A stretch of DNA of 64,000 bases from Desulfitibacter sp. BRH_c19 (GTDB lineage Bacteria; Bacillota; DSM-16504; Desulfitibacterales; Desulfitibacteraceae): NCBI GenBank assembly GCA_001515945.1, contig LOER01000011.1, positions 1 through 64,000 on the forward strand, written 5' to 3'. This document shows positions 10,873 to 13,044 of the stretch, in pieces. Every line of letters begins with the position of its first letter. Position 1 is the stretch's first letter. The notes under the pieces are model-generated. The model had not been told where the DNA came from, ran no database searches, and was given only the letters and a program-made list of their open reading frames with translations. Position numbers and translations under genes: made by a program.

Positions 10873-12450
10873 TTAGCTAATCAATTTTTTCTTAATCTCC
10901 TTAATGAGCTCTTCAGTTTCCTGGTATTTTTTATCTGAGATTAGATTTTTGCCAACAGAATAAAACTGCCTCATCAAACTATCTAACTGTTCATCTAAAT
11001 CTACTTCTTTATCGCGAACTTCATGGGATAGACATAAAGGTTTAGCCTCTGTTGATAGAGGATATTCTTCAAGGTAACAAGGAATATGGGTTTCGATTTG
11101 GTAATCCTGTTCAATTAGTGATTTAAGTGTAGAGCTTTCTTCTAGTTCTCCATGAACTAAGAAAACCAAATCTGGCTTATTAGTAATATTACCTATCCAC
11201 TTTAGAAGGTCCTCCTGGTCCGCATGGGAAGAATATCCTTTGATGCTTTCTATTCTGGCGTTAACAGTAACGTCTTCACCATGAATTTTTACCTTAGAAG
11301 CTCCTTCAAGAATATTTCTTCCTAGGGTACCTTTAGCTTGGTAGCCAATAAACAAAACAGTAGAATTACTTCGCCATAGGTTATGCTTTAAATGGTGCTT
11401 AATACGACCTGCGTCGCACATACCACTAGCAGAGATGATAATTGCTCCACTTCTAATTTTATTGATAGCTTTGGATTCCTCTGCCGTTCTGGTAAATCTT
11501 AAATTATTAATTAATAAAGGGCATTTTCCAGAGGTGCGACCAAAGTCTTGAGTTTCTTCATCGCAACTATCAATATTCTTGCAAAAGATTTCTGTTATGG
11601 CAATAGCTAAGGGGCTGTCCACAAAAATGCTGCTCGGACTTATCTTTCCTGCTTCAACAAGCTTGTTCAAGTCAAAAAGTAAATCTTGAGTTCTTTCTAC
11701 TGCAAAGGAAGGGATAACTAGGTTCCCACCACTTTTAAATGTCTCTTCTATTATTGCTTCGAGTTTACCTGCCCTTGTCATGTCCTCATCATGACTTCTA
11801 GAACCATAGGTGGATTCAATAAGAAGATAATCAGTCTCCTCTAGAAACTCTGGATCATTGACCAAAGGTTTCTCGTAACCACCCAAATCACCTGTAAAAG
11901 TTATTTTTTTAGAACCTTGGGCATTTTTAACCCATACTTCTATGATGGCTGAGCCGAGAATGTGTCCTGCATCTTTGAAGCGGATGCTAATGTTATCGTT
12001 AAGCTTGATCAGTTCATTATATTGCTTACCATCAAAATGTTTTATGCAATCCTCTGCATCTGCGGCGGTATAAATGGGCTCAAGTAGAGGCTTGCCAGCC
12101 CTGAGATTCTTTCTGTTTTTTCGCTCTATTTCCATTTCCTGAATGTGGCCGCTATCAGGAAGCATAACGGAGCACATTTCTTTGGTAATATTAGTGGTAA
12201 TAACAGGGCCTTTATAACCCTTCTTGTAGAGTTTAGGTATACGTCCGCTATGATCGATGTGAGCATGTGTTAAAAGCACCCAATCTATTTCAGCGGGATT
12301 AAAAGGAAAGTCTCCGTAGTTTCTTTCCTTTACCGTTTTATTTCCCTGAAAAAGACCACAATCAACAAGAATTTTTTCCTTAGTATCAGTTGTTACGAGA
12401 TAACAGGAGCCAGTAACAGTTTCAGCACCACCGTAAAAGGTAATTTTCAT
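10873..12450 (-). CDS. MBL-fold beta-CASP metallo-hydrolase (RNA-processing type)
   Basis: A 525-aa cytoplasmic protein with a metallo-beta-lactamase core (motif LLTHAHIDHSGR, about 59-70), GHILGSA (motif 3) and TGDLGGYEKP (motif 4), a beta-CASP insert, and a C-terminal RMMBL segment (YSSHADQEDL, and VHGE). This is the set seen in CPSF/RNase J-like nucleases of the YsH-type, which cleave RNA using two zinc ions. The last 70 residues form a charged helical tail not needed for the core. The substrate is unknown. It is monocistronic with GAGGAGA before the ATG. Confidence 0.88.
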   Translation of the reverse strand: MKITFYGGAETVTGSCYLVTTDTKEKILVDCGLFQGNKTVKERNYGDFPFNPAEIDWVLLTHAHIDHSGRIPKLYKKGYKGPVITTNITKEMCSVMLPDSGHIQEMEIERKNRKNLRAGKPLLEPIYTAADAEDCIKHFDGKQYNELIKLNDNISIRFKDAGHILGSAIIEVWVKNAQGSKKITFTGDLGGYEKPLVNDPEFLEETDYLLIESTYGSRSHDEDMTRAGKLEAIIEETFKSGGNLVIPSFAVERTQDLLFDLNKLVEAGKISPSSIFVDSPLAIAITEIFCKNIDSCDEETQDFGRTSGKCPLLINNLRFTRTAEESKAINKIRSGAIIISASGMCDAGRIKHHLKHNLWRSNSTVLFIGYQAKGTLGRNILEGASKVKIHGEDVTVNARIESIKGYSSHADQEDLLKWIGNITNKPDLVFLVHGELEESSTLKSLIEQDYQIETHIPCYLEEYPLSTEAKPLCLSHEVRDKEVDLDEQLDSLMRQFYSVGKNLISDKKYQETEELIKEIKKKLIS

Positions 12451-12739
12451 TATTATATTCTCCTCTCAATTAGTATTCATATTGTTTAACTATTAAGGTT
12501 CACTTGTCCCATTTTATTACAATTTACTCAGGCCTTGTCGAAAAGTCATAGATTAGCATTAAGCCTGTCATAAACTAGTTTATCATATAAATTACTAGGA
12601 AATGTGATTTTTAAGTGAATTCATAAATTCTCCATTTGAATTAAGGTGAATTCATAGATTCTAAAAGGAATGCAGTATACTAATGGAGAAATAAAAGGTT
12701 ACAAAGCATCCATTAAAATTTTAGGAAGGGGTGGCATCA
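12451..12739. other. Intergenic region ahead of the selenoprotein gene
   Basis: About 290 nt between the divergent metallo-hydrolase and selenoprotein genes. It holds a near-exact direct repeat (see 12613-12662), a candidate -10 box TATACT at 12676-12681, and the ribosome site AGGAAGGGG at 12722-12730. No other gene is visible. Confidence 0.5.
12613..12662 (+). repeat. 19-bp direct repeat upstream of the selenoprotein gene
   Basis: AGTGAATTCATAAATTCT (from 12614) recurs as GGTGAATTCATAGATTCT (from 12645), 31 bp apart, that is close to three helical turns. Each copy contains the palindrome TGAATTCA. The second copy ends 14 bp before a candidate -10 box, so an operator is plausible. Confidence 0.5.
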
Positions 12740-12973
12740 ATGAAGTACATAGAGGTTCTTTTTTGTGCTGGCTGAGGCTATCAACCTCAGGCTGCTAGTG
12801 TAGCAGAAGAAATCGAAAAGGAATATCCTCAAGTAGAGGTTGAATGTGAGCCTGGTTCTGGAGGAGTTTTTGATGTAATTATTGATAATAAGGTTATCTT
12901 TACTAAAAAAAATACTGGGCGCTTTCCTGAAAGAGGAGAGATTGTGAAGTTAATTAAGGAGACACAAAAATAA
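12740..12973 (+). CDS. Selenoprotein, SelW/Rdx family (UGA = Sec at codon 12)
   Basis: A 77-aa thioredoxin-fold redox protein if the UGA at 12773-12775 is read as selenocysteine. The redox motif is Cys-Ala-Gly-Sec (residues 9-12) at the end of the first beta strand. The remaining frame is open to the TAA at 12971 and has the Rdx hallmarks: an alternating helix-strand middle, GGVFDVIIDNKVIF, then GRFPERGEI. Ribosome site AGGAAGGGG precedes the ATG. Directly after the UGA two hairpins are possible (12772-12790 and 12792-12806), the second with GTG in its loop, fitting a bacterial SECIS. Partners of SelW-like proteins in bacteria are poorly known. Confidence 0.88.
12772..12806 (+). promoter_or_regulatory. 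Candidate bacterial SECIS element
   Basis: Stem 1 pairs 12772-12777 with 12785-12790 and includes the UGA. Stem 2 pairs CTGCTA (12792-12797) with TAGCAG (12801-12806) around a GTG loop 25 nt after the UGA. Bacterial SECIS hairpins lie inside the coding region just after the UGA and carry a G-U pair of bases in the apical loop, as here. Confidence 0.6.
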
Positions 12974-13016: not shown

Positions 13017-13044
13017 AAGGATAAGTGATGCTTATCCTTTTTTT
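13017..13044 (+). terminator. Rho-independent terminator of the selenoprotein gene
   Basis: Stem AAGGATAAG (13017-13025) with CTTATCCTT (13031-13039), followed by T residues. Confidence 0.88.

Follow-up and report, generated by a model that had tools for sequence, protein, structure and literature searches.

The stretch of Desulfitibacter sp. BRH_c19 DNA that we analyzed, 64,000 nucleotides in all and referred to here as the window, carries a gene for a SelW-like protein of the Rdx family at positions 12740 to 12973 on the forward strand. Its ATG at 12740 lies 3′ of a Shine-Dalgarno-like sequence, AGGAAGGGG (12723 to 12731, same strand), codon 12 is an in-frame UGA (12773 to 12775), and 65 further sense codons lead to a TAA stop at 12971 to 12973. 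When the UGA is taken as selenocysteine (Sec), the product has 77 residues and its translation begins MKYIEVLFCAGU GYQPQAASVAEEIEKEYPQVEVECEPGSGGVFDVIIDNKVIFTKKNTGRFPERGEIVKLIKETQK. The residues Cys9-Ala-Gly-Sec12, encoded by TGT GCT GGC TGA (12764 to 12775), constitute a CxxU redox motif, with the UGA at the second redox position. A first-pass annotation had described the ribosome site, the start codon, the TGA within Cys-Ala-Gly-TGA, and the frame continuing to a TAA, and all of these elements are present. Ordinary gene callers overlook or shorten this frame, since UGA is normally a stop. The open frame alone is weak evidence, because 53 of the 2205 TGAs in the window (both strands) likewise precede 65 open codons; such an arrangement is not rare, and the evidence for the gene must therefore come from the protein.

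The selW gene stands between a divergently oriented neighbor at 10873 to 12450, which reads as a metallo-beta-lactamase-fold gene, and csfB/gin. In both congeners, the two other members of the genus, csfB/gin and Orn/Lys/Arg-decarboxylase-like genes again lie 3′ of it. An intrinsic terminator, consisting of a stem-loop and then a T run at 13017 to 13039 on the forward strand, ends the selW transcript before csfB, and both congeners have a matching stem-loop. Because this strong terminator follows the gene and the upstream neighbor is divergent, selW is probably transcribed alone, as a monocistronic unit. A promoter scan for the selW gene returned no credible sigma-70 site. Upstream of the gene, a near-direct repeat composed of AAGTGAATTCATAAATTCT and AAGGTGAATTCATAGATTCT, about 33 bases apart, occupies window positions 12613 to 12670. 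This repeat is possibly an operator; it is not evident in the alignment with one of the congeners (G001).

The read-through product matches the Pfam Rdx profile (PF10262) over residues 4 to 73 with an E value of 3.6e-22 and 78.8 bits (curated cutoff, 22.6 bits). It also matches the NCBIfam profiles NF041051 (SelT/SelW/SelH family [seleno]protein; E=1.3e-26, 92.6 bits, cutoff of 88) and TIGR02174 (CXXU_selWTH; E=5.3e-20, 71.5 bits, cutoff of 34.2). These matches span the entire read-through product and all exceed their curated cutoffs, bearing out the family assignment that the first reading had proposed; the gene is the single Rdx match in the whole genome. An AlphaFold model of the product, for which the input alignment left out one plasmid-record row, has a mean pLDDT of 94.6. 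It contains a strand at residues 3 to 9 and a helix at residues 15 to 28 and places Cys9 and Sec12 between strand 1 and helix 1, where proteins with a thioredoxin-like fold have their redox site. The top structure matches in the PDB are SelW-related proteins (TM-score by query length, 0.86 to 0.91); human MIEN1 and mouse SelW come next. By sequence, MIEN1 is the closest PDB match, and its disulfide potential has been measured at -225 mV (PMC3527542). The model thus confidently predicts a thioredoxin-like fold, as in the solved Rdx members.

Both congeners have selW, at 66 to 68% identity, and in each of them the same codon is UGA. Downstream of the UGA, comparison of the window gene with the congeners gives dN/dS values of 0.18 and 0.25, and comparison of the congeners with each other gives 0.03 (Nei-Gojobori; rough values, the gene being small), which is consistent with purifying selection acting past the UGA. 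To place the codon in a wider context, we sampled 399 genomes evenly across the phylum; a scan of a separate contig collection yielded a single relative. A match was present in 29 of them, and 28 full-length homologues entered the counts after exclusion of a fragment match in G176 (L048, 46-70). The codon-12 position is UGA in 26 of the 28, TGC in one, and CGA in one. The genome with the TGC homologue, G353, gave only tRNA-Ser matches and no tRNA-Sec when searched for tRNA-Sec; tRNA-Sec was found in both G215 and G148. UGA is also present in three records outside the sample, namely, a Gemmatimonadetes bin and plasmids of Cytobacillus spongiae and Thermomicrobium roseum, and TGC occupies the codon in five Pseudomonadota and Nocardia records. 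Hence, apart from the one CGA homologue, the relatives have UGA or Cys at exactly the codon where the first-pass annotation had expected Cys or Sec, and columns C9 and U/C12 are invariant in the protein alignment.

The CGA homologue (L043, G148:C12:56931-57131, minus strand) is a fused-type Rdx protein with an Arg codon where its relatives have UGA. It retains an intact SECIS hairpin, with all 5 pairs and the loop AGTCT, and the tRNA-Sec of its genome is normal, with the anticodon UCA; the CGA may reflect a recent Sec loss or else an error in sequencing. It belongs to a set of six proteins (L042, L043, L044, L045, L046, and L047) of about 270 to 320 residues, in which an N-terminal Rdx domain is fused to a further domain, identified as DUF2703 in the single member scanned. 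Five of these six have UGA at the CxxU position of the Rdx domain, and their hairpins retain 4 to 5 of 5 pairs. On the Thermomicrobium roseum plasmid (NC_011961.1; L075:301-537), the CDS annotated as “Rdx family protein” begins 3′ of an in-frame UGA and is hence shortened; the true gene appears to encode a SelW-like selenoprotein. On the 690-kb Cytobacillus spongiae plasmid (NZ_CP089998.1; L074:301-504), selD adjoins a SelW-like gene that contains a UGA and whose hairpin is intact. The gene table, itself incomplete, lists no gene there.

The signal for Sec insertion in bacteria lies within the coding sequence, 3′ of the UGA. The published bSECIS model specifies a loop of 3 to 9 nt, a stem of 4 to 16 bp, a G among the first two loop nucleotides, and a spacing of 16 to 37 nt (PMC13188914). 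A hairpin at 12792 to 12806 on the forward strand fits this model in stem, loop, and spacing: a 5-bp stem (12792 to 12796 with 12802 to 12806) beginning 16 nt past the UGA encloses the loop AGUGU (12797 to 12801), which begins 21 nt past the UGA and contains the invariant G12798. We evaluated this helix in a gap-free alignment of 24 distinct UGA-type sequences from 24 species, anchored at the UGA. It is paired in 95.8% of cells, compared with 80.4% in shuffles, and has double-sided compensatory changes in four of its five pairs. Its covariation score is 0.462, against 0.153 for shuffles and at most 0.144 for slid versions, and RNAalifold selects exactly this helix. The loop follows the pattern N-G-N-N-U, with both G and U invariant across the 24 sequences. 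Since the codon holding the loop G specifies Ser, Arg, or Gly, which share little beyond a G at the second base, this pattern suggests a constraint at the RNA level. Among Cys-type homologues, the full stem is missing, with 1 to 4 of 5 pairs in six sequences versus 5 in most UGA forms. Covariation over 24 species thus delineates a clear SECIS core for the SelW-like family: a 5-bp stem, an N-G-N-N-U loop, and a fixed spacing from the UGA.

Folding of the window sequence by itself gives a different picture. The minimum-energy register is shifted, with a stem of 12791 to 12795 paired with 12800 to 12804 and the loop UAGU, so that the loop G is third rather than second as in the covarying register; cross-species comparison alone decides between the two and favors 12792 to 12796 with 12802 to 12806. 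The hairpin alone has an energy of -6.9 kcal/mol, slightly weaker than the model limit of -7.5, and the stretch from the UGA to the end of the stem has -12.2 kcal/mol. The fold energy of the window sequence relative to shuffles is not exceptional (z of about -1.0 to -1.9) and does not clearly separate the SECIS. The first-pass annotation had placed a hairpin directly behind the UGA. A conserved, covarying hairpin does exist, but at 12792 to 12806; the one in the position originally proposed, which includes the UGA (12772 to 12777 with 12785 to 12790), appeared strong from the window sequence alone but is paired in only 52.8% of cells across the 24 species, no better than shuffles, and we rejected it.

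Decoding of UGA as Sec depends on dedicated machinery, and the first reading had implied its presence; tRNA-Sec, SelA, SelB, and SelD are indeed all encoded in the genome (3.85 Mb, 48 contigs, estimated to be 100% complete). A single tRNA-Sec gene (selC) with the anticodon UCA lies on contig C47 directly 3′ of selB, which exceeds the TIGR00475 profile cutoff. A selA-like open reading frame (ORF), named by reading of the ORF rather than by profile, adjoins selB in the same orientation, and selA-selB-selC form one cluster on C47. There are two selD genes (L051, G000:C10:35446-36366; L053, G000:C34:194322-195242), in both of which the UxxK site contains an in-frame UGA. They differ from each other, with the motifs RAAGUAAK and SPGSGUACK; congener G002 has two selD matches over the cutoff, and congener G001 has one. 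Two formate dehydrogenase alpha genes (fdhA) over the family cutoff (G000:C34:51959-53962 and G000:C4:131338-133335) have one in-frame TGA each. Because two selD and two fdhA genes carry UGA, the organism appears to decode this codon as Sec in several genes. A third molybdopterin-type match (G000:C23:8886-9668) also has a TGA. For the C-terminal domain of aldehyde ferredoxin oxidoreductase, eleven places in the genome (e.g., C26:287776-288915) exceed the Pfam cutoff, a large set for a single genome, but the search for these enzymes had no bearing on selW.

Taken together, the first reading of 12740 to 12973 as a selenoprotein gene withstands both of the refuting conditions it had set and is correct. 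It is nearly certain, in our judgment, that this is a bacterial SelW-like selenoprotein gene with SECIS-directed Sec at UGA codon 12 and a product that is most likely a thiol/selenol oxidoreductase. Under the mechanism we propose, a ribosome reaching the UGA would encounter the stem-loop in the coding sequence, whose loop lies 21 nt 3′ and contains a G; this element would recruit SelB with Sec-tRNA(Sec), so that selenocysteine would go in instead of termination occurring and translation would proceed to the TAA. We infer this decoding in the cell from the sequence. The product would then fold as a small thioredoxin-like protein, with strand 1 and helix 1 flanking the Cys9-x-x-Sec12 pair, which would cycle between a selenylsulfide and a reduced form. 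A role as a small thiol/selenol oxidoreductase is the most likely one given the motif and the predicted fold.

Among the alternatives, the one that survives best accepts a true selenoprotein with a regulatory rather than a redox role, in which UGA decoding serves as a gauge of selenium or the protein is a selenium store or carrier. No partner gene adjoins selW, which has its own terminator and appears to be monocistronic; bacterial SelW-like proteins have only a predicted redox function; and one plasmid record has selD next to a SelW-like gene with UGA. In contrast, a CxxU motif carried by a thioredoxin-like fold is a classic arrangement for redox activity, and other organisms keep Cys forms, for which a selenium store would offer no explanation. 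We therefore consider this role very unlikely. A dedicated function in this small Bacillota class beyond general thiol redox, such as selenium-dependent signaling or selenium handling, is conceivable because selW is a single-gene unit without a redox partner beside it; our analysis found nothing pointing specifically to such a role, and we consider it very unlikely.

A pseudogene is far less probable still. According to this model, a CxxC Rdx gene had its Cys codon, TGC or TGT, changed to TGA, leaving a dead frame; such Cys-type homologues do exist (in G353 and several plasmid records), and TGA is one base away from either codon. However, the UGA is retained in two congeners and in distant families, the protein past it is conserved under apparent purifying selection, the SECIS hairpin at 12792 to 12806 covaries, and the genome has the full Sec machinery; we thus rejected the pseudogene model. 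Genome-wide reassignment of UGA to Trp or Gly, or unspecific near-cognate read-through, would also account for a frame that stays open across the UGA, but we rejected it as having almost no likelihood, since UGA is an ordinary stop for 7 of the 46 longer ORFs in the window, 149 Trp codons there are TGG, homologues have Cys rather than Trp or Gly at the position, and the genome encodes tRNA-Sec with a UCA anticodon together with selAB.

Bacterial SelW-like selenoproteins with a CxxU motif have been recognized for about 20 years (since 2005-2006), and the biology of this gene is already known. They are the most abundant selenoprotein family of the Sargasso Sea set (PMC1088965), are listed for Clostridia such as Alkaliphilus metalliredigens and Desulfotomaculum reducens (PMC1794560), and are known altogether from Alkaliphilus, Desulfotomaculum, Geobacter, Symbiobacterium, and the Sargasso Sea set (PMC1794560, PMC1088965). 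A 2026 review equates the SelW-like family with PF10262 and its CxxU motif and places it among the families predicted with high confidence, as opposed to those verified experimentally (PMC13188914). Our results confirm the gene and add a new lineage to these proteins; their main value lies in annotation.

Like the bacterial SelW-like selenoproteins, the product described here has the full-length domain, the CxxU position, and a bacterial SECIS 3′ of the UGA; it differs only in sequence (the closest congener found is 68% identical) and in its host lineage, a small Bacillota class. With the Cys-type Rdx structures (2fa8, 3dex, 2obk, 2oka, 2ojl, and 2p0g), it shares the fold (TM-score of up to 0.91) and the position of the redox pair, yet theirs is CxxC rather than CxxU, and the Cys-type genes examined lack the full SECIS stem. 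Mouse selenoprotein W (2npb) has the same thioredoxin-like fold and CxxU motif but is distant, with an E value of 5e-5 by sequence and a TM-score of 0.75. In eukaryotes, the SECIS element sits in the 3′ untranslated region. Eukaryotic SECIS elements also differ in structure from the bacterial coding-region hairpin (PMC1088965).
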